DNA from: Syntrophorhabdales bacterium
GTDB taxonomy: Bacteria > Desulfobacterota > Syntrophorhabdia > Syntrophorhabdales > WCHB1-27
Length of the DNA: 51,845 nucleotides
Direction: 5' to 3'
Assembly: GCA_035541455.1 (NCBI GenBank)
Contig: DATKNH010000069.1
Coordinates: 1-51,845, forward strand
The notes under the pieces: model-generated
Seen by the model: the letters and a program-made list of their open reading frames with translations, nothing else
Databases searched by the model: none
What the model was told of the DNA's origin: nothing
Shown here: piece by piece, positions 1,133 through 19,792 of the stretch
Numbering within the stretch: the stretch's first letter is position 1
How the letters are laid out: each line of letters begins with the position of its first letter
Translations under genes and position numbers: made by a program

Positions 1133-1521
1133 GCCAATTTTACATATTACACAAATATGGAGTTCATAAGCAGTTTGGTAGAACCGGCATCACAAGGAAA
1201 GAAATAACGTCTAGCCTTTGCGCTCGCGGCGCAAGCTTCGCTCGGAACTGGCAGGACGGGTTTGATGTATATCGAGGCGCAAGGAATCGGACGAACCAAC
1301 TGCTTTCGCCGGGCACCCGCGGTCACCAGAACCTGCATTCGCGGGTGGCAAACACCGAGGAGTCACGATGACGCAGCGTGCGACCCGCGAAGAAAATTGG
1401 CGGCTTTCTATTTTTGAAGGTGGTCGCGAGTGCCCCGCTAAGTCAGAGAGTTGCGTGTTAGAATGGCCGCAAACTCTAGTCCTGGCAGCTCCGACGAACC
1501 GTTATTAACAAAGGAAGGGGG
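1133..1521 (+). promoter_or_regulatory. 389-bp gene-free leader with alternating hairpin arms upstream of the ligase operon
   Basis: No convincing gene is present. Three mutually complementary arms are visible: CACCCGCG (1314-1321), the middle arm TTCGCGGGTG (1338-1347) and ACCCGCGAA (1383-1391). The middle arm can pair with the left arm (8 bp) or the right arm (9 bp) but not both. A smaller hairpin, TTGCGC/GCGCAA, sits at 1218-1234. After the right arm the sequence runs into a pyrimidine-rich stretch ending in five T near 1412. The layout resembles an attenuator, but no function is established. A purine-rich ribosome binding site (AAGGAAGGGGG) precedes 1522. Confidence 0.35.
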
Positions 1522-3186: not shown

Positions 3187-3276
3187 GCGCAAGCTGTAGC
3201 GAACGTTACAATCTTGCGGTCAGGCGAATAAACCAGTCGTGTTTCATTGCGAGCGAAGCATTAAGAGGAGGAAAAG

Positions 3277-5580
3277 ATGCACAATGAAGAGTATGAAGTC
3301 GTAGGCAAACCCGTCGAGAGAACCGACGGCAGAGTAAAGGCAACCGGTAAGGCTAAATATGCGGGAGATTTGGTGGCGCCCGGCATGCTTTACGGTAAGC
3401 TGTTAAGGAGCCCTTTAGCCCACGCGGAAATTCTGAATATCGACACACGTAAGGCGAGCAGGCTTCCCGGCGTGAAAGCCATAATAACCGGAAAAGATTT
3501 TCCCGGCATTCCCTTTGGCACACGGGCCGACACAAGAGACCAGCTTCCCATGCCCGTCACCAAGGTGCATCACTTTGGCGAAGGTGTGGTTGCAGTGGCA
3601 GCAGTGGACGAGGATGCGGCTGAGGAAGCGCTCGATCTTATTAAGGTGGACTACGAGGAACTGCCCGTCGTTTTAACTGCGGAGGATGCTCTGGCGCCGG
3701 GCGCACCGCTGGTCAATGAATTCTGCAAGAGCAATATCGCCTACACCTCTGATTTTGTCTTCGGGGATCCGGAGGAGGGCTTCAGGCAATCGGATTATGT
3801 CAAAGAAGAAAAGTTCAGCTCACAACGGGTTGCTGTTGGCTTTATCGAACCGCACGCCTGCCTGGCAGAGGTAGATGCAACCGGCAGGGTGCTCCTGCAG
3901 GGATCGAAGCAGAGTCCCTATCCCACGTGGCGCCACATGTGCAGGGCATTGGATCTGCCCTTGTCTAAAATGCGCCTGGTGACACCCTTCGTGGGCGGCG
4001 CGTTCTCCGGCAAGCATGATCCCTTCGATGTGGATTTCGCAGCCGTGAAGCTGGCACAGATCACCAACAGACCGGTCAAGATCGTGCTCAATTACGATGA
4101 AGTGCTCGCCGGCTATCGCCAGCGCAATGCGATGAACGCAACGCTCAAGATGGGGCTCAAGAAAAGCGGAAAGATCATGGCGCTCAAAGCCGAGTGCGTG
4201 CTCGAAGGAGGCCCCATCGCAGGCATAGGACCGTTTAATATCTATTTCTTTGGTGCGTGGCTCAACCTTCCCTACAAGGTGCCTGCCATCGAATATCACG
4301 GCAAGCTGGTCTATTCCAACAGGGCGCCCTGCGGCACCGTGAGGGGACAGGAGATCGTGCTCGCCCAATACGCAGTCGACTCAATGATCGGCATCGTTGC
4401 CGAAGACCTCGGCATAGACCAGGTGGAGATCCGCGCCATCAATGCGATGACTGACAATTCTACAACCGCCAATGGCATCGTGGTCGACGTATCGGGACTT
4501 CCCGAATGCATAGACAAGGCTGCCGGGACGATCGGGTGGAAAGAGAGCAGAAAATCAAGGCCCAAGGGAAGAGGCATTGGTTTCAGCTGCGCGTCGCATC
4601 CTTCCGGTGTGCGCCTCGGCGGCCATTTCGGCTCTTCGGTCCTTCTCAAGCTGCAGGAGGACGGCAAGGTTATTCTTACGCACGGAGGCACCGAGATCGG
4701 TCAGGGCGCCAACACGGTATTCTGCCAAATGGCAGCCGAAGTCCTCGGCATTCCTTTCGAAGACGTGATTCAAGGACCAAGTGATTCTGACACAGCCATA
4801 CTCGATTCGGGCATGTTCTCCGACCGGTGTACCTTCTGGGACGGGAATGCTACTATTGCGGCTGCCAATGACCTCAAGCGCCAGCTCGCCGAAATCGCGG
4901 CGAAAGAGTTAAACGTGAATCCCGAAGATCTGGAATTCAAGAAGGGCCGCATCCATGTAAAGAGTGATTCAGCCAAAGGGATGGATATGCTGAAGGCAGT
5001 AAGGATTGCCTATTACGATATCGGCGCGCCACTCTATGGCCGCGGTTACTGGGCTGCCACAGATATTGATCTCGTAGACTGGAAGACAGGCCGCGGCAAC
5101 CTGGCGCATGGCATCGATTTTATAGCCACGGCAATAGAGATGGATGTGGACCGCGAGACAGGCCAGGTCAGGTTGATCAGAGCTGCTCACGGAGATGATG
5201 CCGGGCAGCCGATTCACCCGGTCATGCTCGAAGGTCAGGTAAACGGCGGGAGTGCCCACATGACAGGACACGCGCTTCTGGAAGACTCGCTCTACGATGA
5301 GAAGGGACGGATGCTCAACTTCACGTGGCGCGACTATAAACAGCCAACAGCCCTGGATGCGCCCGAATACATCGTGGAGCACGTACACACGCACGATCCT
5401 TACGGCCCCTTCGGTGCCAAGGGCGCGGGCGAAGCAAGCTCCTGTTCGAGCCTCGCGGCGATCGCCAATGGCGTCTACGATGCGGTCGGTGTACGCATCA
5501 GAGACCTGCCCATCACTCCTGAAAAGATTTTGGCAGCATTGAAAGAGAAAGATAAGAAGAATGAGAAGGGGGGAAAGTAA
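3277..5580 (+). CDS. Molybdenum hydroxylase large (molybdopterin-binding) subunit, 4-hydroxybenzoyl-CoA reductase/xanthine dehydrogenase family
   Basis: The 767-residue length is close to HcrA (about 770). The N-terminal domain carries the usual ATGKAKYAGD segment, the core has GGAFSGKHD and THGGTEIGQGANT cofactor motifs, and the C-terminal GAKGAGE at 713-719 provides the active-site glutamate (Glu719). These bind a monomeric molybdopterin cofactor and perform hydroxylation or, in HcrABC, reductive dehydroxylation at an aryl-CoA. There is no signal peptide, so it is cytoplasmic. It begins after an AGAGGAGG site and ends one base before the FAD-subunit ATG, so the three subunits are translationally coupled. 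The family is certain; the exact reaction is not, because the FAD subunit lacks a hallmark of true 4-hydroxybenzoyl-CoA reductase. Confidence 0.88.
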   Translation: MHNEEYEVVGKPVERTDGRVKATGKAKYAGDLVAPGMLYGKLLRSPLAHAEILNIDTRKASRLPGVKAIITGKDFPGIPFGTRADTRDQLPMPVTKVHHFGEGVVAVAAVDEDAAEEALDLIKVDYEELPVVLTAEDALAPGAPLVNEFCKSNIAYTSDFVFGDPEEGFRQSDYVKEEKFSSQRVAVGFIEPHACLAEVDATGRVLLQGSKQSPYPTWRHMCRALDLPLSKMRLVTPFVGGAFSGKHDPFDVDFAAVKLAQITNRPVKIVLNYDEVLAGYRQRNAMNATLKMGLKKSGKIMALKAECVLEGGPIAGIGPFNIYFFGAWLNLPYKVPAIEYHGKLVYSNRAPCGTVRGQEIVLAQYAVDSMIGIVAEDLGIDQVEIRAINAMTDNSTTANGIVVDVSGLPECIDKAAGTIGWKESRKSRPKGRGIGFSCASHPSGVRLGGHFGSSVLLKLQEDGKVILTHGGTEIGQGANTVFCQMAAEVLGIPFEDVIQGPSDSDTAILDSGMFSDRCTFWDGNATIAAANDLKRQLAEIAAKELNVNPEDLEFKKGRIHVKSDSAKGMDMLKAVRIAYYDIGAPLYGRGYWAATDIDLVDWKTGRGNLAHGIDFIATAIEMDVDRETGQVRLIRAAHGDDAGQPIHPVMLEGQVNGGSAHMTGHALLEDSLYDEKGRMLNFTWRDYKQPTALDAPEYIVEHVHTHDPYGPFGAKGAGEASSCSSLAAIANGVYDAVGVRIRDLPITPEKILAALKEKDKKNEKGGK

Positions 5581-6476
5581 TGTTTATCAGAAGACTACCC
5601 AAATTCGAATATCACACAGTGTCGTCGGTAGCGGAGGCACTTAAGCTCCTAAAAACCTATGGCACCAAAGCGAGAGTGCTCGCCGGCGGTACTGATCTGT
5701 TACTGGCCATGAAGAAGAGAGCGGTCACGCCTGAACATTTGATCAATATCAAGAATATAAAAGCCCTGAAAGGCATTTCGTACAACGAGAAGAAGGGGCT
5801 CAAGATAGGCGCACTCGTGACGTGCGCAGATCTCGAAGAATCTTCTCTCGTCCGCGAGAAAGCTCCTGCCCTCCGGGATGCGGCACTCGTCATGGCTTCT
5901 CCGCAAGTTAAGACATTGGCCACCATCGGGGGCAACATTTGCAGCGCCGTTCCATCCGCAGACACCGCACCGCCTTTGATTGTCATGGGCGCACAAGCCG
6001 TGCTTATCGGGCCCAAGGGCGAGCGCACGGTGCCCGTTGAAAAACTGTTCAAGGGTCCGGCGGAGACGAGGGTTGCAAGGAACGAGATCCTGGCGTACAT
6101 CCAGATTCCCAAACAGCCTGTCAACAGTTGCGCTGCCTATCTCAAGCTGATGCGGCGGGCTGCCCTTGACCTTGCCCTGGTGGGCGCCGCAGCCTACATC
6201 TGCCTTGACAAGGACAACAAGACTTGCAAAGAGGTGAGGATCGCACTGGGAGCCGTGGCACCGACACCTATACGAGCGCCGATGGCCGAAGAACTACTCA
6301 CCGGCAAGGAAATTACGGAAAGCGTGGTTGATGAGGCCGGCAAGGTAGCCGGCACCATCTGCAGTCCAATCAGTGATGTCCGGGCATCGCTCGGCTATCG
6401 GTGTGACATGGTCGAAGTCTTCACGAGGCGAGCGGTCATGGAAGCATTCAGACGCATCACAAATGGAACGAGGTAA
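5580..6476 (+). CDS. Molybdenum hydroxylase FAD-binding (medium) subunit
   Basis: 298 residues with the FAD motifs AGGTDL (35-40) and TIGGNI (115-120), as in xanthine dehydrogenase and CO dehydrogenase medium subunits. It passes electrons between the [2Fe-2S] subunit and its acceptor or donor. True 4-hydroxybenzoyl-CoA reductase beta subunits carry an extra loop of about 40 residues with four cysteines holding a [4Fe-4S] cluster; here only Cys121 lies in that area and no cysteine occurs between 122 and 183, so the loop is absent. Its start overlaps the last base of the large-subunit gene. The gene order large, FAD, Fe-S is normal for the family. Confidence 0.9.
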   Translation: MFIRRLPKFEYHTVSSVAEALKLLKTYGTKARVLAGGTDLLLAMKKRAVTPEHLINIKNIKALKGISYNEKKGLKIGALVTCADLEESSLVREKAPALRDAALVMASPQVKTLATIGGNICSAVPSADTAPPLIVMGAQAVLIGPKGERTVPVEKLFKGPAETRVARNEILAYIQIPKQPVNSCAAYLKLMRRAALDLALVGAAAYICLDKDNKTCKEVRIALGAVAPTPIRAPMAEELLTGKEITESVVDEAGKVAGTICSPISDVRASLGYRCDMVEVFTRRAVMEAFRRITNGTR

Positions 6477-6480
6477 AGCT

Positions 6481-6957
6481 ATGAAAAACAGAGTCGAGAT
6501 CACACTCAATGTTAATGGCGAAGAGTATCAGTTGGAGATTGAACCGCACCGGACCCTCGTTGAAGTTCTGCGCGAGACCCTTGGCTTCACAGGCACCAAG
6601 AAGTCGTGCAATGAAGGAGAATGCGGTGCGTGCACAGTCATCATGGATGGCAAACCGGTGGCATCCTGCCTGGTGCTTGCGCTCGATGCCCAGGGGAAAA
6701 AGATCCTGACCATCGAAGGACTTGCCAGGGGCGAGGAGCTTCATCCCCTTCAGGTAGCCTTCGTAAGAAAGGGAGGCATACAGTGCGGCTTCTGTACGCC
6801 CGGCATGATCATGTCGGCCAAAGCCCTTTTGGACAAGAACCCGAAGCCCACGACCACTGACGTGAGAAAAGCAATCTCGGGTAATCTCTGCCGGTGCACC
6901 GGGTATCAGCAGATTGTGGATGCGGTAATAAGCGCCGCTTATGAAATGCAGAAATGA
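6481..6957 (+). CDS. Molybdenum hydroxylase [2Fe-2S] (small) subunit
   Basis: 158 residues. The N-terminal plant-type ferredoxin domain holds Cys43, Cys48, Cys51 and Cys63 (CNEGECGAC motif) and the C-terminal helical domain holds Cys102, Cys105, Cys137 and Cys139 (CGFCTPG and CRCTGY), the standard eight ligands for two [2Fe-2S] clusters. The ATG at 6481 follows a GAGGTAAAG site four bases past the FAD-subunit stop. An in-frame ATG upstream at 6373 would add 36 unrelated residues overlapping the FAD gene and is rejected. It completes the three-subunit enzyme and ends the plus-strand operon. Confidence 0.93.
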   Translation: MKNRVEITLNVNGEEYQLEIEPHRTLVEVLRETLGFTGTKKSCNEGECGACTVIMDGKPVASCLVLALDAQGKKILTIEGLARGEELHPLQVAFVRKGGIQCGFCTPGMIMSAKALLDKNPKPTTTDVRKAISGNLCRCTGYQQIVDAVISAAYEMQK

Positions 6958-7176: not shown

Positions 7177-7860
7177 TCAAGCCCTGCGAACAACGCTCTC
7201 CAGCCATTTTTTTTCAGTACGTATGTAAGCATTGAGGATGAGTGCGAAGCCGCGAAAGAAATCTGTGGACGCATGTTTTTTCACTGCGCTGCAGAATTCC
7301 GAAATCCAGCTTCCCAGATGCACCCTGAGAAACTCCTCCTCCAGCGCAAGCACCGAGGCGATCGTTTCCCCGGCAGCGTTTTTCAAACGTAAGTTTTCTT
7401 CCCGAAGGCAGAGCTGTCTCATGAAGTCCAGTTCTACGCAAAGGTAGTCGACTGAATCCTTATTTGTTTCATCGGGCAGCAATGCTGCTTTGCGATAGAA
7501 TCGCTTGACCCCCAGCACAGAGTGCTCGAAGGCCCTGCCCTTCTTGTACAGTCCCTCATAGGGAGGCTTCATGTCAGTGTGGCCTGTGCCTCTCATAATC
7601 CTGGTCCGATCAACGGCTAAGTCTGTGAGCACATCTTCATCCGCTCTATCCCGTATATGGAAGCGATACTGACTAATCAGCTCCAATCCCGCGCCAAAAC
7701 CCTCCTCACCCAACCGCGAATAACTTTCGAGCATCCGCTGAAACTCACCATCTCTGATCTTTGCGAGAAGAAGCTGACCCGGTAGAAGCTCAAAAACAGC
7801 TACCAGGAGCTGGTAGAAGGCGGCCCTTCCTGACGCGATATCATATAAATTTGTCTTCAC
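7177..7860 (-). CDS. TorD/DmsD-family molybdoenzyme maturation chaperone
   Basis: 227 residues, mostly helical by composition. The family signatures PPYEGLY (99-105) and DYLCVELDFM (138-147), and a late EEEFLRVHLGSWISEFC helix, are clear. TorD-type chaperones bind the molybdoenzyme catalytic subunit and hold it until the bis-MGD cofactor is inserted. It is the last gene of the operon encoding the catalytic subunit, ferredoxin and NrfD anchor, from which it is separated by about 210 bp with a repeat. The start is a GTG at 7858-7860 with no good ribosome binding site, so the exact start is uncertain. Confidence 0.85.
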   Translation of the reverse strand: MKTNLYDIASGRAAFYQLLVAVFELLPGQLLLAKIRDGEFQRMLESYSRLGEEGFGAGLELISQYRFHIRDRADEDVLTDLAVDRTRIMRGTGHTDMKPPYEGLYKKGRAFEHSVLGVKRFYRKAALLPDETNKDSVDYLCVELDFMRQLCLREENLRLKNAAGETIASVLALEEEFLRVHLGSWISEFCSAVKKHASTDFFRGFALILNAYIRTEKKWLESVVRRA

Positions 7861-7938
7861 GTGTATATCTTTTGGGTGCCCGTCTAGTGCGCACCAGGGG
7901 TTAGTCTCTTACAGGCTGTGACTCAAATTCGAATATCT

Positions 7939-8034
7939 AAATCCTAAACAAGTTCCAATATCAAGTGCCCCAAACCTGGAAGTCCGAGATGCATTACGTT
8001 TTTAATTTTCATCATTCGATATTGTTTAGGATTT
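7939..8034. repeat. Intergenic inverted repeat between NrfD and TorD genes
   Basis: AAATCCTAAACAA (7939-7951) and TTGTTTAGGATTT (8022-8034) are exact 13-bp complements. Around them are echoing words such as CCAATATC (7955-7962) and GATATTGG (8036-8043). The tract fills most of the 212-bp gap 7861-8072, contains no gene, and would fold into a long imperfect hairpin in the operon transcript. Confidence 0.55.
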
Positions 8035-8072
8035 CGATATTGGGACTTGGAATTTGTCGTCCGGGCCGCCTC

Positions 8073-8966
8073 TTAACGTACCACAATCCGTACGCCCGAC
8101 CTGATGACGCTCAATCTCAACAACAGTCCGCCACAAAGCAGCAACAGGCTGGCCAAGCCGTCCATCAGGCGGATGAAAGGCGCATCAGACATATAGGCGC
8201 TGCAGATGTACATGGCAAGAGGTAGCAGCAACCCGGATAGTATGACTCCGCATATAAAGAAAGGGCTTGCGAGCAGGCGAACCGAAGCGGCTGCAGTCGC
8301 TCCAGACTGGCGCACTATTTCCATATACGCTCCAAGCGCGACCAGCAGTAAGACTATGAGGCTCGCATCGATAATCCCGAGGAGGTGAAGACCGTCCGTT
8401 CCGACAGCCGAAGGAATGACAAGAGACATAAGGACGAGAGTTGCCAATCCCGTATCCATTCCCGACAGAAAGAAGAGGGGAGGAAGCGCAGACGTGTTCC
8501 ACAACGGAATGCTCTTTATCACACCGAGCAGCAGGCCCGGGTAGACTGCAACTACCAAGGCAAGCAAGGCCGTCACGGTGCCCAGTGCCACTCCGAAACC
8601 CGATGTCTGCTCCCAGGGCAGCCAATCGAAAAGAGCAAAGCCGGGCAGCGCGTAAGCAAGACCGAGAATAATGAAAGCAGTAAGGATCCATGCGCCCCGT
8701 ATCATCCACGAAGTGAGGAGCGTAGCCGGCGTGGTGAAAAGCCTGTAAGCCCGTGTCACCGAGCCCAAGTCAAAAAGAAGCAAGGCGCTGCCCACCGCAA
8801 CCGATAACGGGCCTGCAAGCGCCCCAATTCGGGCCACGGCAGTATATTTGCCTATGAATATAAGGATAAAGCTGAAAACAAAAGCGCCGGCGCCCAACCC
8901 TGCAAGGAACACGTAGATGGCTATCAGCCAACCCCATTCCCTCTGGCCTTCCATCCGGTCCATCAT
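8073..8966 (-). CDS. NrfD/PsrC-like quinone-interacting membrane subunit
   Basis: 297 residues with about eight hydrophobic helices and almost no soluble domain. The WGWLIAIYVFLAGLGAGAF start and the IPLWNTSALPPLFFLSG segment are typical of NrfD/PsrC anchors, which exchange electrons with menaquinone. It follows the ferredoxin gene by 7 bp. Translation could start at the first ATG (8966) or the adjacent second one (8963), which is better placed behind GAGGGA. It should anchor the ferredoxin and catalytic subunit to the cytoplasmic membrane. Confidence 0.88.
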   Translation of the reverse strand: MMDRMEGQREWGWLIAIYVFLAGLGAGAFVFSFILIFIGKYTAVARIGALAGPLSVAVGSALLLFDLGSVTRAYRLFTTPATLLTSWMIRGAWILTAFIILGLAYALPGFALFDWLPWEQTSGFGVALGTVTALLALVVAVYPGLLLGVIKSIPLWNTSALPPLFFLSGMDTGLATLVLMSLVIPSAVGTDGLHLLGIIDASLIVLLLVALGAYMEIVRQSGATAAASVRLLASPFFICGVILSGLLLPLAMYICSAYMSDAPFIRLMDGLASLLLLCGGLLLRLSVIRSGVRIVVR

Positions 8967-8973
8967 TCCCTCG

Positions 8974-9579
8974 CTATCCGTTTATGTAATACACCGAAGG
9001 TTTCGTGCCCAGCTCTTCTCTCAGCACTTCACCCCGGAATACTGCTATCAATTCAGAGACCTCGCTTGCGGGATCGTCGAGGTCGCCAAAATGTCTCGCC
9101 TGAGCCGGGCACGTCTCCACGCACGCGGGCAGGCGCCCCTTTTCCAGTCTCTGGACGCAGAAATCGCATTTAACAGCGGTTCCCTTGTCGAAATCCTTTT
9201 GTTTCATCATCTCATACGGAGTCCTCGCGGCGAGTCCGTAATAGTTGTCGATACGCTTCAGATAGTAGCGCACCTCATACGGGCAGGCCAGAACGCAATA
9301 CCGGCATCCCATGCATTTGGTGTGGTCGACGAGGACTATACCGTCATCCCGCTTATACGTCGCACCCGTGGGACAAACCTCGAGACACGCCGGTTGCTCG
9401 CAATGCATGCATGGCATCGGACGGAATTTCATGCGTGCAGCAGGGTATTTGCCCGCTTCATATTTTTCAACCCGGTGGTAGAGTATTCCGGAAGGAGTGC
9501 CCTTTTCGGCCCTGCACGCGACAGTACAGCTGTTGCAGCCCGCACACCGTTTCAGGTCTATCACCATCCCGTATCTCAC
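8974..9579 (-). CDS. Four-cluster [4Fe-4S] ferredoxin subunit (DmsB/PhsB/NrfC-like)
   Basis: 201 residues with sixteen ordered cysteines: Cys12/15/18/22, Cys57/60/65/69, Cys89/92/95/99 and Cys138/141/153/157. This is the standard arrangement of electron-transfer subunits in complex-iron-sulfur molybdoenzymes, linking the catalytic subunit and the NrfD anchor. There is no twin-arginine signal. The start codon overlaps the stop of the catalytic subunit gene (ATGA at 9576-9579), so the two are translationally coupled. Confidence 0.93.
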   Translation of the reverse strand: MRYGMVIDLKRCAGCNSCTVACRAEKGTPSGILYHRVEKYEAGKYPAARMKFRPMPCMHCEQPACLEVCPTGATYKRDDGIVLVDHTKCMGCRYCVLACPYEVRYYLKRIDNYYGLAARTPYEMMKQKDFDKGTAVKCDFCVQRLEKGRLPACVETCPAQARHFGDLDDPASEVSELIAVFRGEVLREELGTKPSVYYING

Positions 9580-12260
9580 CGGCGCCCCTCCTTCCTGTAT
9601 ACCTTCACCGCAGGCGCCGTGTCCTGGCCGGCACTCACCCCATCAAAGGTCCTGGGGTCGATAGAAAGGAGGGCGTTGAAATTGGGCCCCAGGCAGTTCA
9701 ACGGGTTCGACTGACACGTGCCGAGACCATAACTGCCACCTATGCCGACAGTGTCAGGATGGAACAGTTCCGAAACTTTGAGCCGGCCTTCAATTCTGCC
9801 ATACCTCGACTCCACCACCACGGTCTCTCCGTCCTTCAATTTCTTCCTCGATGCCGTCGCCGGATTGAGCAGGATCACCGACTCCCACGGATCCTTCGCG
9901 TAAACCTCAGCAAGCCAGGGGTTGCCCGTAAGGTTGCCGGCATCGTTGGCAATATAGGGAGTTTTCCAGTTAATGGCCCAAAGGTCATAACCTTCGGCCG
10001 GTGCCCGGAACTCTGAAGTTTCCACCCAGTGCGGAATCGGCTGGTAGAGGTCAAGGATGTAGTCCATGTCGTCGATCATGGGGAAGGAAATCTTGTGCTC
10101 GAGCAGATTCTTCTTCAGACGGTCTCCCACTTCTTTGAGGCCCATCAGATAAAAAGGGTGCCGAGTCTTGTTGTCCGGGAAATAGTAGTAGAGGTAAAAC
10201 TCTTTTCTTTGTTTCCAGTATTCGATGTATCCTTTTTCTCGAAGTTCCTTAAGACCCTTGCCGCCGCCGTACGGCCAACCGCGTATCTGGCGATCGAAGA
10301 TCTCCTCCAACGAATATCTCCGGTTGAGATCGAGCTTCCACTCGCCGTTCATGTTGAGCCCGTCTTCTTTATCCACCCAGTCCAACCCATTATTCAGACA
10401 GTCATAGAGCCCGCCTTCGCCATAGAGAATACCGAGGCGATCGGCCAACTCCATGAAGATGTCGTCTGCATTCTTTGTATTGAAAAGAGTCGGCACCGGT
10501 TCTCTCAACTGGACCATCTTCAACCCGTTCACTTCATCATCAATCGATTGATGCTGGAGATAAAAGGGCACTACTCGTAACCTTTCCAGGGCGCTGTGCT
10601 CGGGAAGAAGCACGTCAGAAAGAATTGCAGGCTCGTCCATGTGGAAGGCGACGCTTACCACAAAAGAGAGTTTCTTGAATCCCTCCACGTATTTTTCCGG
10701 CTGTGCGTTTTGCCGGATAGGGTTTCCACCCACCGACAGCCACGCATCCACCCTGTAGGGAAGATAGCATTCCTCGGGGTGGAGAATAGAATTGAGCACC
10801 AAGTGTGGTGCCGTGTGCTGATGGGGGTAGAACTCCTGCAGGGTCGCGTGCTCAGGAGGAAATGCGAAAGGCCTTGGTATCGCCTCGTACCGCGGTGCCG
10901 ATGTGCCGTCTTCCGTCGGGCCCATAATGGGACCGCGTATACTGCAACTCAGACATCCTCCCGGCACTTCGATATTGCCCACTAGCAGGTTTATGATCTT
11001 TCCGACGAAGTCCGCATACGTTCCTCCACGCCGGTTTGTGACGTTGCGCTCCACGTTGAGTGAGACCGGCCGGAAGGGAAAGGTGAAGCCGTCGATCTCG
11101 ATCGTGCTGCCGATGCGGGCGTGCTCCACGAATTCCCTGGCCAGCCGCCGCACGTTCGCAGCCGGGACCGTGGTGATCTCTTCGGCCCATTCAGGTGTAT
11201 ATTGCGCGTACGCTGCCTTTACCAGTGTGAAGCCGGTACTGCAGGCCGCACCGTTCACCGTGAAAGAGCCTTCGAGGGCGATCTCTTTGAATTCGGCATT
11301 GTAAGGCTTTGACCTGTTGTCAACCGGATCCCACATCATGGGCTTGCCAGTTTGCGGATTCCTGCAATACTCACCTTGCGCGTCGATCAGGTAGGGAGCG
11401 TTGGTGCGGTTCTTGAGAAACCAGACGTCGAAAACTTTGATCTCGTGCAACATGACATGCGCCATGGCCAGCAGAAATGCCAGGTCTGTTCCGGGCCTTA
11501 TGGGAACCCATTCGCCCTTTGACGCCTCGTAAGAGCTTCTGGGATCAACCACAACGAGCTTCATTCCTCTCTCGATAGCCCTGGCGAAACGGCGCATGCC
11601 CGGCACAGCACCGAAATTCGGCCCCAGAGAGCGACCCATGGTTATATGGTACTGGCAATACTCCAGGTCAACAATAGCAACCGGATATCCGGAATGAACA
11701 AGACCTGACGGAAAATGGACCGTGCACAAGGCTCCGTGAGAACCTGTTTCATTCGGCGTTCCGAATGCTTTGCCAAACGGACCGCGCAGGATCGTGTCCC
11801 GCTGTCCCCAACCCTCACAGATCACCAATCCTCTCCGATCTTTCTCCCTCACCTTTTTCAAACCCTCGGCTGCATAGTCCAGGGCTTCATCCCACGAGAC
11901 CTCTTTCCATTTCGGGTCGACATCGAGACCTTTTTCCGGGTTGGTCCTGATCATGGGAGCTTTAATGCGGTAGGGGTTGTAGAGTGCCATGATCTCGGCG
12001 TTCCCTTTGGGACAGAGCGTTCCCCAGTTGGGTGGCGCTCCTGTATTGCCTTCCACCTTAACCACCACACCGTCCTCCAGATGCACGAGCGTGGCGCAAT
12101 CTCCCTGCATACACGCACGGCAGAGGCCGAAGAGCGTCTTCTTCTCTCCCTCGGAACCCGGCTCGACCTGCTTCCACTTGTAAGGAGAAAGCTCAGCCCA
12201 GCCTTCGGGCGGCTTCAACCCGCCCATGATCTCTTCGTATGAAGATCGCTTACTGCTCAT
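9576..12260 (-). CDS. Molybdopterin bis-MGD oxidoreductase catalytic subunit (DMSO reductase superfamily)
   Basis: 894 residues. The N-terminus carries a cluster motif, Cys47-x2-Cys50-x4-Cys55 and Cys83 (CPKG), then the large molybdopterin domains and a C-terminal dinucleotide-binding domain (NPATASRKKLKDGE). In the ETGSHGALCTVHF segment Cys179 is the likely molybdenum ligand, as in thiosulfate, polysulfide and arsenate reductases. Unlike most NrfD-linked enzymes there is no twin-arginine signal at the N-terminus (MSSKRSSYEEIMGG), so it appears cytoplasmic. It heads the operon with ferredoxin, anchor and chaperone. The substrate is unknown; sulfur compounds, arsenate-like oxyanions or a hydroxylated aromatic are all possible. 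Confidence 0.88.
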   Translation of the reverse strand: MSSKRSSYEEIMGGLKPPEGWAELSPYKWKQVEPGSEGEKKTLFGLCRACMQGDCATLVHLEDGVVVKVEGNTGAPPNWGTLCPKGNAEIMALYNPYRIKAPMIRTNPEKGLDVDPKWKEVSWDEALDYAAEGLKKVREKDRRGLVICEGWGQRDTILRGPFGKAFGTPNETGSHGALCTVHFPSGLVHSGYPVAIVDLEYCQYHITMGRSLGPNFGAVPGMRRFARAIERGMKLVVVDPRSSYEASKGEWVPIRPGTDLAFLLAMAHVMLHEIKVFDVWFLKNRTNAPYLIDAQGEYCRNPQTGKPMMWDPVDNRSKPYNAEFKEIALEGSFTVNGAACSTGFTLVKAAYAQYTPEWAEEITTVPAANVRRLAREFVEHARIGSTIEIDGFTFPFRPVSLNVERNVTNRRGGTYADFVGKIINLLVGNIEVPGGCLSCSIRGPIMGPTEDGTSAPRYEAIPRPFAFPPEHATLQEFYPHQHTAPHLVLNSILHPEECYLPYRVDAWLSVGGNPIRQNAQPEKYVEGFKKLSFVVSVAFHMDEPAILSDVLLPEHSALERLRVVPFYLQHQSIDDEVNGLKMVQLREPVPTLFNTKNADDIFMELADRLGILYGEGGLYDCLNNGLDWVDKEDGLNMNGEWKLDLNRRYSLEEIFDRQIRGWPYGGGKGLKELREKGYIEYWKQRKEFYLYYYFPDNKTRHPFYLMGLKEVGDRLKKNLLEHKISFPMIDDMDYILDLYQPIPHWVETSEFRAPAEGYDLWAINWKTPYIANDAGNLTGNPWLAEVYAKDPWESVILLNPATASRKKLKDGETVVVESRYGRIEGRLKVSELFHPDTVGIGGSYGLGTCQSNPLNCLGPNFNALLSIDPRTFDGVSAGQDTAPAVKVYRKEGRR

Positions 12261-12436: not shown

Positions 12437-13735
12437 CTACGATTTCGGTATGGGAAAAATAAGCTTGGCTGTTTTCTTTATCTCGGGATACTGGTTGTTT
12501 TCAACGATCTCCAGTTCCCACGGCCATTTCTTTCCTTTTACCCATTGTCCACCGACCATCGGTGTTTTGGAATAATTCTGGTTATTGAACTTAAGAGGGC
12601 CGACTATGGTAGTTAGATTTGTCTGGGCAATAGCTTCCCTCACCTTGTCCTTGTCAACGGTTCCGGCTCTCTTCAGGGCATCTATGGCCACTTCGAACGT
12701 GGCATAGGTGAAGCCAAGTATCTGGGTCCATTGCCTTCCGGTCTTCTCCGTCCAGGCATCGCAGAGAGCTTTGGAGCCGTACCCGGCCACGGATGACTTG
12801 AAAGGATGATAGGGACTCCACCAAACGCAGGTGGTGAGTCCATTGGGCAGGTTCCCTCCGATGGCCTGGACCGCAGACGGGAAGAGAATGGGCTTCCCGC
12901 CCGTACACATTTTCGGGATAAATCCTTGCTGAAAGCACTGACGCCACGCTGCCGCAAAATCAGGCGGAGGCTGAATGCTGGTCAGTATCTCGACTTTCTC
13001 TTTTTTCCAGAGATCAATGAAGGAAGTATAGTCCGGTGTCTTATTGGGGAACCTGCCGGCATCCACCACCTTGTAGCCTTTCTCATTCAATCGCTTGGTA
13101 AACATCTCCGCATAGGTCTTGCCGTCAGGATCGTTCGGCCACAGCCCGCCCACGACTTTGTTTGTCTTATCGGCAACACTGTCCCACATGGCAACAAAGG
13201 TGTCCACGATCTGCGGCACGGAGAAGAAGAAATGGAAGCTCCATTTATACGGGCCACCCGTGAGCCACGACTCAACAGGCGCATTCGAAGAGATGCACGG
13301 AATCTGATAGCGCTCGCACATGGCATCTACCGGGTTGACCGTGTCAGGCGTGTGCAGTGTGATCATGAGGTCGATCTCATCCTGGAGGATCAATTTGGAG
13401 GCCACGTCGCCAGCCTTGGTAGGATCACTCTCCGAATCCATCAGCTTGATGCGAACGGGCAGCTTCTTTCCCGCCTCCTTGATAAAAATCCCGCCGTCCT
13501 TGTTGATTTCCGCGAGTACGCGATCATCAACCCACGGCGTTGTCTCGCCGAAGGAGGAAAGAGCACCCGAGTTCGGGTTGACCCTCCCTATCAATATGAA
13601 ATCCCTTTTCTTCGCAGCAGAGGCACGTCGAGTGAGCGCTGGGATGCTCAAAGCCGCTCCTGCGATGGTCGTTTTCTGAATAAATTCTCTCCGCGTCATA
13701 CCTGACCGCCTGGTGACTGTCTCCTCGTCTCCCAT
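12437..13735 (-). CDS. Tat-exported LivK-like ABC substrate-binding protein
   Basis: 432 residues. The start holds a twin-arginine signal (TRREFIQK, then a hydrophobic AGAALSIPAL and a cleavage-type ASA near residue 40), followed by the periplasmic binding protein type 1 fold (IGRVNPNSGALSSFGE; LINLHTPDTVN-type segment). These receptors bind branched-chain amino acids, amides or aromatic and organic acids for Liv-type ABC importers. No permease or ATPase gene of that type is adjacent, so it is an orphan receptor here. It has its own promoter and a downstream hairpin, indicating a single-gene unit. The Tat signal implies folding before export, unusual for this family. Confidence 0.85.
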   Translation of the reverse strand: MGDEETVTRRSGMTRREFIQKTTIAGAALSIPALTRRASAAKKRDFILIGRVNPNSGALSSFGETTPWVDDRVLAEINKDGGIFIKEAGKKLPVRIKLMDSESDPTKAGDVASKLILQDEIDLMITLHTPDTVNPVDAMCERYQIPCISSNAPVESWLTGGPYKWSFHFFFSVPQIVDTFVAMWDSVADKTNKVVGGLWPNDPDGKTYAEMFTKRLNEKGYKVVDAGRFPNKTPDYTSFIDLWKKEKVEILTSIQPPPDFAAAWRQCFQQGFIPKMCTGGKPILFPSAVQAIGGNLPNGLTTCVWWSPYHPFKSSVAGYGSKALCDAWTEKTGRQWTQILGFTYATFEVAIDALKRAGTVDKDKVREAIAQTNLTTIVGPLKFNNQNYSKTPMVGGQWVKGKKWPWELEIVENNQYPEIKKTAKLIFPIPKS

Positions 13736-13997: not shown

Positions 13998-15197
13998 CTA
14001 CAGTACCAGGACTTCTTGTGGCGTCTTGTGAATCGGCATGGCTTTCCTGTCGCCAACGATGTAGTTGTCACAGCAGAAGCCATACGCTTTGTCCGTCACC
14101 GCGATGGGATGAACTACAATGTTCATGTTGGTAGCAAGTGGCATGTTCTCATCTGCCCGCAGGGCGGGCCTCTCCACCAGGTCATAACCCTGGCCGTGCC
14201 CAAAAAGCCTCCCTTCGGCACCAAAACCCTTGCCGGTCATAAACTCATTGTGAGCCTTGAGCAGATCAGCAGGCCTGGCACCCGCGATCAGGCGTTCTAC
14301 TGTGCGGCGCTGCGCCTCCTTGGCAACTTCCCACACATCGAGCAGTTCTTTAGGCGGCTCCCCCAGGCAGAACGTTCTGCCCAGTTCGGCGTAAAAGCCA
14401 CCCGGCCCGTTCACCTCGATCATGAGAAAAAGCTGATCCCCTGGCTCTAGCGTCCGGTTGGTGTAGTAGTCGCTCCTCTGACCCGTAGGCTTGCCGGGAG
14501 GAGCAGAACCGATCATCAGCAGTTGTTCTTCGCTGCCCATATCCATCAGCATGTGGATGGCGGCTGAAATTATTTCGTACTCTTTCTTGCCAGGCCTCAC
14601 AATGGCTGGTATCGCAGCCATAGCAGCATCCTGGATGGCTGCTGTCTTCTTGATCAGTTCCAGTTCTTCTGGGCTCTTCACTGCCTTGATCGGATCAATC
14701 AGATCCGAGACTTCTACGATCTCCATCTGCCCGCGATTCTGTTGGATGTACTCGTAGGTCGGGGCCGACATGGAACCTTTGGCCACGATCCCAACTTTCT
14801 TTGCGCCGCGGGCTTTCAGTTGACTGACCACTGCCTCGGCGTCCATGGTGTTGGTGTAGTTGAGCGTCCGGAAATAGGGTCGGCCGATTCTCTCCCTGAC
14901 TCCCCGCACAGCCCACTCGGGCGGACCGGGCGGCAGGGGGGCTCCACCACTCGTGATCATCGTCATCTCGTCATCGACGGGAAAGATCACGGTTACGGGG
15001 TAACCCTCCTGGGCAGGAATATCGGTGAACCAGCGTACGTAGCCGCCAAGGTATTGATTACTGTTCTGCATCACGAGGCAATCGATGCCTTGCGTGGCCA
15101 TGGCTTTTCTAGTTACGGCCCATCGCCGCTCCAGTTCAGCCGTGGAGATCGGTTGGCGTATACTCTCAACAAGTGTTGAATTGAGCTTCACAAGCAT
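13998..15197 (-). CDS. M24-fold (creatinase/prolidase-like) protein with altered metal ligands
   Basis: 399 residues: an N-terminal creatinase domain (about 1-165) and a C-terminal pita-bread domain (about 175-399). Prolidase-type M24 enzymes use Asp, Asp, His, Glu, Glu to hold two metals. In the matching positions I read Glu261, Glu271, His334 (FGHGQG), His363 (VVHPIA in place of the usual TIEPG) and Cys376-Asp377 (CCDNYIV in place of IEDTVLV). Most ligands are therefore changed, arguing against an ordinary dimetal peptidase; a creatinase-like C-N hydrolase or a lyase is possible. The gene follows the receptor gene by 24 bp, so it probably processes the imported compound. Confidence 0.8.
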   Translation of the reverse strand: MLVKLNSTLVESIRQPISTAELERRWAVTRKAMATQGIDCLVMQNSNQYLGGYVRWFTDIPAQEGYPVTVIFPVDDEMTMITSGGAPLPPGPPEWAVRGVRERIGRPYFRTLNYTNTMDAEAVVSQLKARGAKKVGIVAKGSMSAPTYEYIQQNRGQMEIVEVSDLIDPIKAVKSPEELELIKKTAAIQDAAMAAIPAIVRPGKKEYEIISAAIHMLMDMGSEEQLLMIGSAPPGKPTGQRSDYYTNRTLEPGDQLFLMIEVNGPGGFYAELGRTFCLGEPPKELLDVWEVAKEAQRRTVERLIAGARPADLLKAHNEFMTGKGFGAEGRLFGHGQGYDLVERPALRADENMPLATNMNIVVHPIAVTDKAYGFCCDNYIVGDRKAMPIHKTPQEVLVL

Positions 15198-15221: not shown

Positions 15222-16190
15222 CTATTGCAGGGGCATCAAATTAGTCGCAACAATCTCTTTCGCGTCGAATCCATTTTTGATGAAGCCGTATTTGGCGCAC
15301 TGGTCAATCGATACCTGGATCTCTTTTTTGTTGACCTTGGTATAGAATCTCGGCGGTACCACCTTTTTCAAAAGGTTCACGTCCATTTTTGTATATTTTG
15401 CTACTATGGCGGGTATCTGATCAGGGTTCTTGTTGATAAAATCCGTTGCCTTGTTCATGGCCTTGAGAAATCTGGTCAACTTGTCCTTGTTCTTCTCAAG
15501 AGATGCTTTCTTGGCAAACCAGCTCGCAGCCATCATGCGTTCAGCAACTTCAGGAGGATAGTATCCCGGTACAATCATCCGTATTATGCCTTCGGCCTCT
15601 GCGGCTGCTATGAAGGGCTCGGCAGCGTGGGCAGCGTCCACTGCGCCTTCCTTGATGGCTGGCATCTGGCTGGGCATAGGGATTTCAACGAATTTCATTG
15701 TCTTCGCATCAACGCCGTAGAAGTCTGCAAGCACGAGGACGCCCAGATGGTTTATGGACTGGAGGGCATTGATGGCAACCTTCTTGCCGGCCAGATCCTT
15801 CATGGACTGTATCGGGGAATCTTTCTTCACAACTATGCCGACGGTCTTCCGGTTAGTGCTGTCCACAAAAGACCCGGGTGCAATGAAGACAAAATCAAAA
15901 CCCTTCACGTATGCCTGTGAAAGAGGGACTACTGCAGTCCAACCCAAATCCACGGACCCGCTCTCCACGAGCGTCTGGCTCATGGATCCGGACTGGACAG
16001 TCTGCCCTTCCACCTTGAGTCCTTCCTCCTCGAGATAACCCTTTTCCCACGCAACATAAAGCTGCTGGCAATCCATGATGGGAATGTAGGAAACCTTCAT
16101 GGGAATGAGTTCCTTGGCAATTCCGGAGTCCGCTGTAGCAAATGCAAACATAAGAAAAATACCCACAAGCATTGCCGATACTTTTTTCAT
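15222..16190 (-). CDS. NitT/TauT-type ABC substrate-binding protein
   Basis: 322 residues with a Sec signal peptide (MKKVSAMLVGIFLMFAFATADSG region) and the type 2 binding fold of SsuA/TauA/NrtA proteins (YIPIMDCQQLYVAWEKGYLEE; KKVAINALQSINHLG). It captures a small anion such as a sulfonate, nitrile-type compound, aromatic acid or pyrimidine precursor in the periplasm. A strong GGAGGAG site precedes the ATG. It lies 58 bp downstream of the second permease gene and 24 bp upstream of the M24-fold gene, inside a five-gene operon. The ligand cannot be assigned. Confidence 0.88.
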   Translation of the reverse strand: MKKVSAMLVGIFLMFAFATADSGIAKELIPMKVSYIPIMDCQQLYVAWEKGYLEEEGLKVEGQTVQSGSMSQTLVESGSVDLGWTAVVPLSQAYVKGFDFVFIAPGSFVDSTNRKTVGIVVKKDSPIQSMKDLAGKKVAINALQSINHLGVLVLADFYGVDAKTMKFVEIPMPSQMPAIKEGAVDAAHAAEPFIAAAEAEGIIRMIVPGYYPPEVAERMMAASWFAKKASLEKNKDKLTRFLKAMNKATDFINKNPDQIPAIVAKYTKMDVNLLKKVVPPRFYTKVNKKEIQVSIDQCAKYGFIKNGFDAKEIVATNLMPLQ

Positions 16191-16248: not shown

Positions 16249-17025
16249 TCACGTTATGGCTTCAAACTTTGCTTTATGCCAACCTATCAGGGTCTTGTTC
16301 AGGTAACGGAGCAGCGCATTGAGTGCATAGCCGACAATTGCAACGAGAAAGATGCCTGCGTACATCTCTGGAATATCAAACCTGCGCTGCATAAGCAAGA
16401 TAAATCGACCGATCCCATTGACGGCTCCCACCATCTCAGCAATAATATCCACAATCAACGCGATAGGCAAGGCGACTCTCCACCCTGTGAAAATCTGGTG
16501 CAGAGACGCAGGCAGAATCACCTGTCGGATGATCTCGTAGCGGCTTCTTCCGAATGTCTTTGCAGTATCAACGAGCGTGGGTTCAACACTCCTGACTCCG
16601 TCCATTGTGTTGATGAGGATCGGAAAAGAGCAGGCAAACCCGATCACGATGATCTTCATGGTCTCTCCGATACCCACAAAAAGCATCACCACAGGAATGA
16701 TTGCCGGAGGCGGCAATGGCCTCAGTAATTCGGTAAGCGGTTCAAACAGATTGCACACCGGCCTGAAGAGTCCCATGACGATTCCCAGGGGTACCATCAG
16801 GACAACGGCAAGAAAAAACCCGGCGAAGATCCTGCCAAGGCTCCGAATCAATTCAAAGGGTAATGTACCGTCCAGCATCAGTTGATAGAACGTTACCAGG
16901 TCCTTGGATATGGGAGGGAAATAGAGAGGCGAGATGAGCTTGTTTCTCGATACAATCTCCCAGAGAAGCGCAAGGCAGAGGAGAAAGCATACTCCTTTGA
17001 TCTTCGTCGAAAAAAATTCTCTCAT
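16249..17025 (-). CDS. ABC transporter permease (SsuC/TauC type), second of a pair
   Basis: 258 residues from the ATG at 17023-17025, which overlaps the stop of the preceding permease (ATGA), so coupling favours this start over one six codons upstream. About six membrane helices. The BPD_transp_1 coupling loop EMVGAVNGIG...and the preceding VDTAKTFGRSRYEI segment are typical. It is a diverged paralogue of the adjacent permease (shared ELLRPxP and YALN segments), so the importer probably has a heterodimeric membrane domain. Confidence 0.88.
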   Translation of the reverse strand: MREFFSTKIKGVCFLLCLALLWEIVSRNKLISPLYFPPISKDLVTFYQLMLDGTLPFELIRSLGRIFAGFFLAVVLMVPLGIVMGLFRPVCNLFEPLTELLRPLPPPAIIPVVMLFVGIGETMKIIVIGFACSFPILINTMDGVRSVEPTLVDTAKTFGRSRYEIIRQVILPASLHQIFTGWRVALPIALIVDIIAEMVGAVNGIGRFILLMQRRFDIPEMYAGIFLVAIVGYALNALLRYLNKTLIGWHKAKFEAIT

Positions 17026-17810
17026 ACAGATTTTGCGGTCCACCCTTTATGCCAGGCCATAAATCTCTCCTCTGCAATCATAAAGAGACGATTGAGAGCG
17101 TAACCAACCAGCCCGATCGTGATGATGCCGGAATACATCTGTGGAATGCGATAGCCGTTATACGTGTCCATGATAAAGAAGCCGAGTCCCTTAAAGCTTG
17201 CGAGCATTTCCGTGACCGTGACTATGATGATCGAAGTCGCGAGGCTTATCCTGAGGCCGCTCACGATGTACGGCAGGGCAGCGGGCACCACCACCTTCCT
17301 GAGCAGTTCAGAGCGCGTAGCCCCGTAGATCCTTGCGGTGTCAATCCATTGTGTGTCAACACTTTTCGCGCCCTCATACGTGTTGACAAGAATAGGCCAG
17401 GTGCAGCCGAAGGTGATGATCGAAATGTTATAGCTGTTGGACGTACCGAAAAGGAGAATGGCAATGGGAACCAAGGCAACCGAGGGCATAGGTCTCAAGA
17501 GTTCGATGGTGATCTCCAGCAAGTCAGAAACCCATCGAATGGTTCCTGTGAGTGTGCCCAGGGTAACACCAATAAGGATCGCAAGACAGTATCCGCAAAA
17601 CGCTCTGTAAATGCTGATGCTCGCCTGCTTGAGTATCTCTGTTGATCGAATTCCTTCAAAGAGGGCTGCCATCACCGTGGAAAAAGGGGGGAAATAGCGG
17701 GCGTACACAATACCGGAGCGGGGAAGAATCTCCCAAAGTACGATCAGGAATAAGAGAAGCAGAGCGCCGGAAGCGCGGGTCTCAAGGATCGCTCTCCTGA
17801 TGGTGTGCAC
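17022..17810 (-). CDS. ABC transporter permease (SsuC/TauC type), first of a pair
   Basis: 262 residues from a GTG at 17808-17810 behind AGGAT. About six membrane helices and the cytoplasmic coupling segment IDTARIYGATRSELLRKV that contacts the ATPase. It lies 26 bp after the ATPase gene and overlaps the next permease by four bases. Related systems usually use one permease gene as a homodimer; the two paralogues here suggest a heterodimer. Confidence 0.88.
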   Translation of the reverse strand: MHTIRRAILETRASGALLLLFLIVLWEILPRSGIVYARYFPPFSTVMAALFEGIRSTEILKQASISIYRAFCGYCLAILIGVTLGTLTGTIRWVSDLLEITIELLRPMPSVALVPIAILLFGTSNSYNISIITFGCTWPILVNTYEGAKSVDTQWIDTARIYGATRSELLRKVVVPAALPYIVSGLRISLATSIIIVTVTEMLASFKGLGFFIMDTYNGYRIPQMYSGIITIGLVGYALNRLFMIAEERFMAWHKGWTAKSV

Positions 17811-17836: not shown

Positions 17837-18652
17837 TCATTCCTCCTGACATACATCCCGACGCTCACATTTCTGTCCTTCTTCCCGTATCAAGGTGTAA
17901 ATGTGATGACGATATTCGATGAATCGTTTATCCTCTTTGGTGGTCAACTGATTCCGTGGCCGGCCCAAATCGATTTGTATCTCTTCACGGATTTCCGAAG
18001 GCCGCCCGCTCAGCACGAGAACTCTGTCTGCCAGATAAATTGCCTCTTCGATATCGTGTGTGACGAGAAGAATGGTCTGGGAAAACTTGCTCCAGATTTC
18101 GAGGATTGCATCCTCCAGATCGCTGCGGGTCTGGGCGTCCACAGATGCGAAAGGTTCGTCCATGAGCAGAATGTCAGGGTTAAAGGCTATCCCCCGGGCG
18201 ATCGCAACCCTTTGTTGCATTCCTCCGGAGAGTTCCCAGGGATAATGGTTCTCGAATCCGCTCAGGTATACCGCGGCCAGGGCCGACCTGGCGACATCGA
18301 CTCTTTCTTTCCTGGTCATGTTTTTCTTTTCAAGCACAAAAAGAACATTTTTTAATACGGTGCGCCATGGAAATAGAGAACGGCTGTAATCCTGGAAAAT
18401 CAGGATCATTTCTTTGGGCGGTCGGTCAATCGCTCTCTCATTGATAAAGACTTTGCCATCAGTCGGTTTTAAGAGGTGACAGATGCACTTGAGCAGTGTC
18501 GTTTTACCGCATCCCGAAGGGCCGACAATACAGACAAATTCCCCTTTATTAACTGAAAACGTGATGTTAGCGCAGGCAGGAACTTCTTGCCCATCCCTCA
18601 CATAGATTCTACGCACCTGTTCCGCACGAAGTAGGGGGGTCGTGCTTTTCAT
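17837..18652 (-). CDS. ABC transporter ATPase (SsuB/TauB type)
   Basis: 271 residues from the ATG at 18652, chosen because TTGAGG lies seven bases upstream; farther starts (18676, 18727) lack a site and add a non-homologous tail. Walker A GPSGCGKTT starts at residue 44, followed by the Q-loop (IFQDYSRSLFPWRT), the signature LSGGMQQR, Walker B (ILLMDEP) and the switch histidine (LLVTHD). This is the energising subunit of the NitT/TauT-type importer and the first gene of the minus-strand operon ATPase-permease-permease-receptor-M24 protein. Confidence 0.92.
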   Translation of the reverse strand: MKSTTPLLRAEQVRRIYVRDGQEVPACANITFSVNKGEFVCIVGPSGCGKTTLLKCICHLLKPTDGKVFINERAIDRPPKEMILIFQDYSRSLFPWRTVLKNVLFVLEKKNMTRKERVDVARSALAAVYLSGFENHYPWELSGGMQQRVAIARGIAFNPDILLMDEPFASVDAQTRSDLEDAILEIWSKFSQTILLVTHDIEEAIYLADRVLVLSGRPSEIREEIQIDLGRPRNQLTTKEDKRFIEYRHHIYTLIREEGQKCERRDVCQEE

Positions 18653-18757
18653 AATGGCCTCAAGTCTGACAAACATTCGGCAGCATGTCAAGAGTGAAAA
18701 GAATAAGAACCAGCGAGGTTCGTTCACTCTTTGACTTCAGAAAGATTTCCTTTGAGG

Positions 18758-18774
18758 TTGGCACCGGGTATGCT
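18758..18774 (+). promoter_or_regulatory. Sigma-54-like (-24/-12) promoter of the Bug receptor gene
   Basis: TTGGCAC-CGGGTA-TGCT matches YTGGCACGRNNNTTGCW at 12 of 14 defined positions, with the GG and GC pairs at the correct 12-base offset. Transcription would start near 18786, about 30 bases before the ATG and just upstream of an AAGGAGG site. Sigma-54 promoters need an enhancer-binding activator; none is encoded in the window. Confidence 0.55.
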
Positions 18775-18814
18775 AAGATTCGGATTTGAAGAGTGCCTAT
18801 CACAAGGAGGCCGC

Positions 18815-19792
18815 ATGAGGAGACCGAGTTTGTTAATCGTGACAATCGCAGTAGCTTCACTTCTTTGTGTACCATGGCCGATAAACGCGCAGACGTATCC
18901 CGCGCACCCCATTCAGCTCATCGTGCCTATGGCTCCCGGCGATACGGTTGATCTTGCCGGCAGGGCCATCGCCACTGAACTGGCGAAGATCCTCAAGAAT
19001 CCCGTGATTGTCAATAACAAACCGGGCGGCGGATCAACAGTAGGCGCCGATTTTGTAGTCAAGGGCAAGAAGGATGGCTACACCCTGCTCTTTGCGAATT
19101 CGAATATCTACTACGCACACGCCATGAACCCTGCTGATGTTCCCTACAACCCTTTGACAGACCTGGACCCCCTCTGCCTTGCCGTGTCTACGCCATTGAC
19201 CGTCGCAGTCAACACAGACGCCCCATGGAAAACTTTCCAGGAACTCGTTACGTACATGAAGAGCAACCCGGGGAAGGTCCGCGCGAGCTCCACCGGTGTG
19301 GGTGGAGTCGGCCACTTTAATCTCGAAGTCATCATGAATGAAACCGGGGCGCAGATCAACATGATCCCCTACAAGGGGGCCTCGCCCGCAATGACTGCGC
19401 TCATGGGAGGACACGTAGAAATGTCAGTGCTCTCGTTGAGCCTCATTCACCCACAACTGCAGGCGGGCAAACTGCGGGCGCTTCTGATCTCCAAGAAGAC
19501 GCCTGAGTTTCCCAATATCCCGACCATGAAGCAACTCGGCTACAAGAACGACATGTCTTCGGTACTCTTTGCCTTTTACGCTCCCATGGGCACACCCGAG
19601 TCAGTCAAAAAGACACTGGCCTCTCCTCTGGAAAAAGCCATTAAAGCCCCTGAGGTGGTCAAGGCAATGGAGCAGCTGGGAGCGGTCGAAGATTACGTGC
19701 CGGGCCCTGAGTACAAGAAGATGATGACAAGTGAGTACGAGATGGTGAAGAAGCTACTCAAGGGTGCGGGGTCAGCTGCTGCGACAAAGTGA
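18815..19792 (+). CDS. Bug/TctC-family tripartite tricarboxylate-type solute receptor
   Basis: 325 residues from the ATG at 18815, which has AAGGAGG four bases upstream; a farther in-frame ATG adds 28 unlikely residues. A Sec signal (RRPSLLIVTIAVASLLCVPWPINAQ) precedes the Bug fold with its YPAHPIQLIVPMAPG start and VVNNKPGGGSTVGAD motif. Bug receptors capture carboxylates or aromatic acids for TctAB permeases, none of which is adjacent, so it is an orphan. It diverges from the ABC operon and converges with the amidohydrolase gene 23 bp away. Confidence 0.88.
   Translation: MRRPSLLIVTIAVASLLCVPWPINAQTYPAHPIQLIVPMAPGDTVDLAGRAIATELAKILKNPVIVNNKPGGGSTVGADFVVKGKKDGYTLLFANSNIYYAHAMNPADVPYNPLTDLDPLCLAVSTPLTVAVNTDAPWKTFQELVTYMKSNPGKVRASSTGVGGVGHFNLEVIMNETGAQINMIPYKGASPAMTALMGGHVEMSVLSLSLIHPQLQAGKLRALLISKKTPEFPNIPTMKQLGYKNDMSSVLFAFYAPMGTPESVKKTLASPLEKAIKAPEVVKAMEQLGAVEDYVPGPEYKKMMTSEYEMVKKLLKGAGSAAATK

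Follow-up and report, generated by a model that had tools for sequence, protein, structure and literature searches.

Rebuilt active site and putative catabolic function of an unnamed M24 subfamily encoded beside importers in a Syntrophorhabdales bacterium

What does a member of the M24 peptidase family do when most of its metal ligands have been replaced and its gene closes an importer operon? The question is raised by P0001, a 399-residue predicted protein encoded at 13998-15197 (minus strand, stop codon included) of a 51,845-nucleotide stretch, here called the window, from a 3.9-Mb Syntrophorhabdales assembly of 173 contigs (G000). It matches PF00557 (peptidase family M24) at 85.3 bits, where the cut-off is 23. 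A sequence-only reading of the window had described an M24-fold protein with altered ligands that acts on a molecule brought in by a NitT/TauT-type importer, through creatinase-like hydrolysis or lyase chemistry. This proved largely right: the observation was confirmed and the interpretation is partly supported.

On the minus strand, genes for an ATPase, two permeases and an NMT1-type binding protein follow one another closely in this order, and the M24 gene closes the series 24 bases downstream of the binding-protein gene. The features of the locus are as follows.

7177..7860, minus strand, TorD/NarJ-type chaperone (PF02613)
8073..8966, minus strand, NrfD-type membrane subunit (PF03916)
8974..9579, minus strand, 4Fe-4S subunit of the molybdopterin enzyme
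9576..12260, minus strand, molybdopterin oxidoreductase (PF00384)
12437..13735, minus strand, orphan branched-chain-amino-acid-type (HAAT) binding protein (PF13458, 135.6 bits)
13998..15197, minus strand, M24-fold protein P0001, last gene of the importer run (PF00557)
15222..16190, minus strand, NMT1/SsuA-type substrate-binding protein (PF09084, 106.8 bits; TIGR01728, 120.9 bits, below its cut-off of 163.5)
16249..17043, minus strand, NitT/TauT-type permease 1 (PF00528)
17022..17810, minus strand, NitT/TauT-type permease 2 (PF00528)
17837..18727, minus strand, ABC ATPase of the importer (PF00005)
18731..19792, plus strand, TctC (Bug) binding protein (PF03401, 198.5 bits), divergent from the importer-M24 run at its ATPase gene

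No importer substrate could be assigned by equivalog, as the binding protein, permeases and ATPase were under every cut-off among the matches listed. The HAAT binding protein lies between the M24 gene and the molybdopterin enzyme, and its link to the former is weak. The genes at 7177-12260 form a PsrABC/PhsABC-like set (molybdopterin, 4Fe-4S, NrfD, TorD); by eye, its catalytic subunits have no obvious Tat signal, so they may face the cytoplasm.

The catalytic domain of P0001 is predicted to adopt the pita-bread fold. Residues 165-399 were modeled together with three orthologs and 22 viral-contig M24 sequences, with a cut before a long insertion, and the result had a mean pLDDT of 87.4 and a pTM of 0.85; the full-length model made with the three orthologs had a pLDDT of 46.4. 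Superposition of the domain on the Xaa-Pro dipeptidase (prolidase) 3q6d_D gave Z 29.9 with an rmsd of 1.9 over 231 residues. The Z values were 27.0 for ectoine hydrolase, 26.7 for creatinase, 25.6 for Escherichia coli methionine aminopeptidase and 25.5 for Spt16. P0001 shares with the prolidases (M24B; 3q6d, 1pv9) the catalytic-domain fold (Z 28.9-29.9) and the GHG histidine, and the best profile match of the subfamily is 1pv9 (122 bits). It differs from them in four of the five metal ligands, in the missing loop histidine and in its neighborhood of importers and dehydrogenases.

The canonical Asp/Asp/His/Glu/Glu set reads Met259, Glu271, His334, His363 and Cys376 in P0001. These columns were identified from solved prolidases, from the genome's own intact prolidase (C27b) and methionine aminopeptidase (C95), and from a profile of 24 members. 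All alignments gave the same reading, with the GHG histidine His334 as the only dimetal ligand retained. The predicted strands 255-263, 269-277, 358-362 and 372-380 (domain numbering plus 164) bear or flank the ligand columns. Glu271, His334 and His363 had been named correctly from the sequence; Glu261, named for the first Asp, lies two residues past a column that holds Met259, in a hairpin with one extra residue. Cys376 or Asp377 had been offered for the second Glu, the column of which holds Cys376. Conservation was counted in 37 subfamily rows, one of them incomplete at its end, which leaves 36 at some positions.

14415..14417, minus strand, Glu261 codon: two residues past the first-Asp column; E in 37/37 rows
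14385..14387, minus strand, Glu271 codon: second-Asp column; E in 35/37 rows, H in 2/37
14196..14198, minus strand, His334 codon: GHG histidine, the one ligand kept; H in 37/37 rows
14109..14111, minus strand, His363 codon: first-Glu column; H in 36/36 rows
14070..14072, minus strand, Cys376 codon: second-Glu column; not conserved, with C in 30, T in 4 and W in 2 of 36 rows

The proposal of Cys376 as a conserved new ligand is thereby contradicted. Asp377 itself is kept in 35 of 36 rows, with Glu in the other. Position 259 is always hydrophobic (Leu in 23 rows, Met in 14), Glu342, Arg343, Asn378 and His390 are each found in 36/36 rows, and Arg248, Arg330, Arg343 and Glu342 are invariant or nearly so. 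The two rows lacking Glu271 (L038 and L077) have His there, and both adjoin a gene of the isopropylmalate-dehydrogenase type (the two M24 genes lie at L038:9939-11192 and L077:7173-8369).

With four of the five ligands gone and their replacements conserved, the suggestion that P0001 has no peptidase site is supported. The dN/dS of P0001 was 0.067 against L001 and 0.072 against L002; three ortholog pairs allowed the calculation and gave 0.067-0.075, and synonymous sites were saturated against L003. Such values indicate purifying selection, and the protein is therefore not a product of chance or decay. Low dN/dS together with conserved replacements indicates that the site was remodeled and then maintained rather than lost.

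The subfamily is coherent. In the tree, from which C95 was left out and which contains several long branches, its 24 rows formed one clade with support of 100/100. G000 carries seven copies, the window's own and six others at 42-50% identity; the nearest relatives of P0001 (L001, L002 and L003) are 78-84% identical to it, and members outside these orthologs 36-51%. Its distribution is sparse: members were found in 4 of 46 genomes of the order (E <= 1e-50), in 4 of a sample of 297 from the phylum (E <= 1e-60) and in 9 of 85 genomes of the class of G293. Three alphaproteobacterial members from plasmid records (37-39% identity) are annotated as "M24 family metallopeptidase". In the viral contigs scanned, neither subfamily members nor relatives of the genome's prolidase were found. 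NCBIfam holds no model naming the subfamily, and P0001 is far under every cut-off; over 24 members only peptidase and ectoine-hydrolase models gave matches, with cut-offs compared for P0001 alone. A literature search by title found no paper on the subfamily or its gene neighborhood. We regard the group as a conserved M24 subfamily, as yet unnamed, whose active site has been rebuilt and whose function is putative.

The subfamily is part of a wider expansion. M24 proteins number 22 in G000, 21 in G329 of the same genus, 9 in G177 of the same order and 2-6 in each of the order's remaining 43 genomes. The full ligand set is present in 6 of the 22 in G000 (C27a, C27b, C33, C70a, C70b and C95). The other 16 are altered: the seven subfamily copies, eight further His-type proteins, in which His replaces the first Glu and Gln the second Asp, and C161b, in which the histidine is lost too. 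The eight fall on the subfamily's side of a branch with 98/96 support, which separates them from C161b and the intact enzymes. The 22 loci include L021-L033, L039 and L040.

An expansion of TctC (Bug) binding proteins coincides with it: G000 has 52 matches and G329 has 59, and the rest of the order 0-8, so the TctC expansion in these two genomes is lineage-specific. A lineage-specific expansion of such proteins, with many TctC genes in one genome, is reported for Rhodoplanes (PMC5994714); in G000 and G329 the comparable expansion goes together with that of M24 (22 and 21). By eye, from the listed coordinates, a TctC gene lies within 5 kb of 10 of the 16 altered M24 genes of G000 (7 of 12 contigs) compared with 1 of the 6 intact ones; at that distance the 52 TctC genes together could take in no more than about 13% of the genome. 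G317, with 8 TctC matches and only 5 M24 proteins, argues against a strict link between the two.

Is the NitT/TauT importer the defining partner of P0001, as had been assumed? The closest orthologs say otherwise. L003 has TRAP genes upstream of M24 and molybdopterin, 4Fe-4S, NrfD and TorD genes directly downstream (its homolog of the window's molybdopterin oxidoreductase scores 1799 bits). L002, also seen as L082, has TRAP genes and a downstream flavoprotein; the L001 locus begins at the edge of its contig. The NitT/TauT operon was accordingly rejected as a conserved unit. The molybdopterin complex was likewise rejected as a constant partner: it is present at the window and at L003, two of the four loci, no homolog of the window's protein was found downstream of M24 in L001 or L002, and across the subfamily the complex occurs at 6 of 36 loci. 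What is constant among the orthologs is some importer, not the NitT/TauT type. As the importer class changes between orthologs, a single substrate for the whole family is unlikely.

Neighborhoods were compared at 36 loci including the window, some of them on short contigs; the ortholog L001 (G329:C418) and the partial copy G393:C940 were left out. Genes were called by a longest-ORF script, and TctA, TctB, DctQ and LivH/LivM permeases were labeled from size, position or plasmid annotation rather than by Pfam. An importer was found within five genes at 25 of the 36 loci and belongs to one of five classes (TTT at 13 loci, TRAP at 7, HAAT at 6, NitT at 2 and TAXI at 2, some loci having two); 11 loci, some of them on short contigs, have none. 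This bears out the more general suggestion that the protein acts on an imported molecule. A D-2-hydroxyacid dehydrogenase (PF02826) was found within five genes at 15/36 loci and directly adjacent on the same strand at 11/36. Strong matches to PF02826 (above 100 bits) are listed seven times in G000 and four times in G177, and well under one such neighbor per genome is estimated to arise by chance. Observed are 3 of 7 subfamily copies in G000 and 3 of 4 in G177, in two clusters each; the probabilities calculated for this are too small, since tandem copies were taken as independent and gene totals of 3,700 and 2,500 were assumed. No PF02826 dehydrogenase was found within five genes of P0001 at the window locus. 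Further neighbors are dehydrogenases of the malate/lactate, isopropylmalate, aldehyde and short-chain types, a fumarate-reductase-type flavoprotein and Amidohydro_2 proteins, and at the plasmid loci fumarylacetoacetate hydrolase, 3-keto-5-aminohexanoate cleavage protein and ring hydroxylases. The neighborhoods point to enzymes that act on imported small organic acids.

The best explanation, which we consider evenly balanced between right and wrong, is that P0001 is a non-peptidase catabolic enzyme for an imported small carboxylate, perhaps using a single metal coordinated by two His and two Glu residues. In the rebuilt dimetal site a hydrophobic residue takes the place of the first Asp and Glu261 follows two residues later; Glu271, His334 and His363 occupy other ligand columns. 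These two Glu and two His would hold a single divalent metal, which may activate water or the substrate carboxylate. A small carboxylate from the neighboring importer would then be hydrolyzed or lysed, and the product would pass to a dehydrogenase. The invariant Arg330 and Arg343 are candidate carboxylate binders. The fold, the replacement of ligands, their conservation, the single clade and the neighborhoods of importers and dehydrogenases are all supported by sequence and model; catalysis, the single metal, the carboxylate substrate and the type of reaction are what we infer. The exchange of Glu for His at position 271 fits a metal ligand better than an acid-base group. Several points count against this reading, among them the changing importer class, the 11 loci that show no importer and the lack of a nearby PF02826 dehydrogenase at the window locus. 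Glu261 is off the canonical first-Asp column and its reach into the site is a prediction; aligned aminopeptidases guided the model, so the Glu261 register is not provable from it. Nine further M24 proteins of G000 have other altered sets, which indicates that the fold persists with fewer possible ligands.

The main rival, on balance unlikely, is a hydrolase that needs no metal, similar to creatinase or ectoine hydrolase, in which His363, His334 and Glu342 would serve as acid-base groups and the conserved arginines would bind a carboxylate. Creatinase works without a metal. Creatinase (1chm, 7yto) and ectoine hydrolase DoeA/EutD (6twk, 6yo9) use the M24 fold on non-peptide small molecules, and at Z 26-27 they superpose nearly as well as prolidase. 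The ectoine-hydrolase models match 22 and 14 of the 24 members, and the near-invariance of Arg248, Arg330, Arg343 and Glu342 is as this rival would have it. However, P0001 is far below the DoeA cut-offs (41.2 of 575 for NF038259 and 37.7 of 613 for TIGR02993) and differs from both enzymes in having His for the first Glu; its sequence matches to the creatinases 7yto and 1chm are weak. The conserved replacements are moreover all metal-capable, with Glu and His alternating at 271, and the loop histidine of the intact prolidase, which we take to mark the place of the catalytic His of creatinase, is not retained. Creatinase-like hydrolysis by P0001, one of the chemistries first suggested for it, is possible.

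A non-catalytic pseudoenzyme with a binding or regulatory role is improbable. The proteins to compare are Spt16, which has the M24 fold with lost ligands, and Ebp1/PA2G4. Most catalytic ligands are lost in P0001 as well, and the Spt16 domains superpose well on the model. An M24 pseudoenzyme, LmaPA2G4, has been described (PMC3888471). Against this, residues of the pocket vary little or not at all in a family so divergent outside the orthologs of P0001, and its genes lie in clusters of importer and catabolic genes that include several dehydrogenases, whereas Spt16 and Ebp1 are eukaryotic and regulatory and have no such context.

Could the standard ligands be present at shifted positions, with Glu261 standing in for the first Asp and Asp377 for the last Glu of a dimetal enzyme? 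Conserved acids do occur, two residues past the first-Asp column and one past the last-Glu column, and DddP has an extra ligand, Asp297, two residues past the first Asp, Asp295 (PMC4108388). But the first Glu is plainly His in 36/36 rows, and Asp377, one residue on in the predicted continuous strand 372-380, should face the other side, which leaves this reading quite improbable. DddP had also been put forward as a model for the lost ligands. The DMSP lyase of Roseobacter denitrificans does combine the M24 fold with a non-peptidase reaction; it retains the M24 dimetal ligands with both Glu (Asp295, Asp297, Asp307, His371, Glu406 and Glu421; PMC4108388), whereas P0001 has both Glu columns replaced. 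DddP structures are absent from the 50 structure matches listed for the model, which carries no weight either way. DddP-type chemistry is unlikely for P0001.

That P0001 is an ordinary prolidase or aminopeptidase P and its substitutions are noise is scarcely credible: Pfam and NCBIfam matches are only to M24 families, but the PepQ equivalog NF040821 gave 62 bits against a cut-off of 630, the replacements are fixed across the clade, and the genome carries separate intact M24 enzymes.

If the non-peptidase reading is true, the subfamily would be a third exit of the M24 fold from peptide chemistry, beside the creatinase and DddP types. The name "M24 family metallopeptidase" is given in public records to members without a peptidase site, and would be misleading if they are catabolic enzymes. 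A broader proposal is that a new mononuclear two-His/two-Glu site arose in an unnamed family that diversified with importers, above all TctC, into an organic-acid catabolic toolkit, 16 of the 22 M24 proteins of G000 being non-canonical; we put this forward tentatively and lean somewhat against it. If the members are catabolic enzymes, the recurrent partnership of D-2-hydroxyacid dehydrogenase and importer would offer a concrete route to substrate and reaction.

Two further loci deserve mention. In G177, L034:8053-11628 holds three tandem M24 genes, two of the subfamily and one of another class, adjoining a D-2-hydroxyacid dehydrogenase and a molybdopterin enzyme. At 344-6957 on the plus strand of the window lie an IclR regulator, an AMP-dependent ligase and three xanthine-dehydrogenase-type molybdenum hydroxylase subunits, a cluster suggestive of aromatic-acid catabolism.
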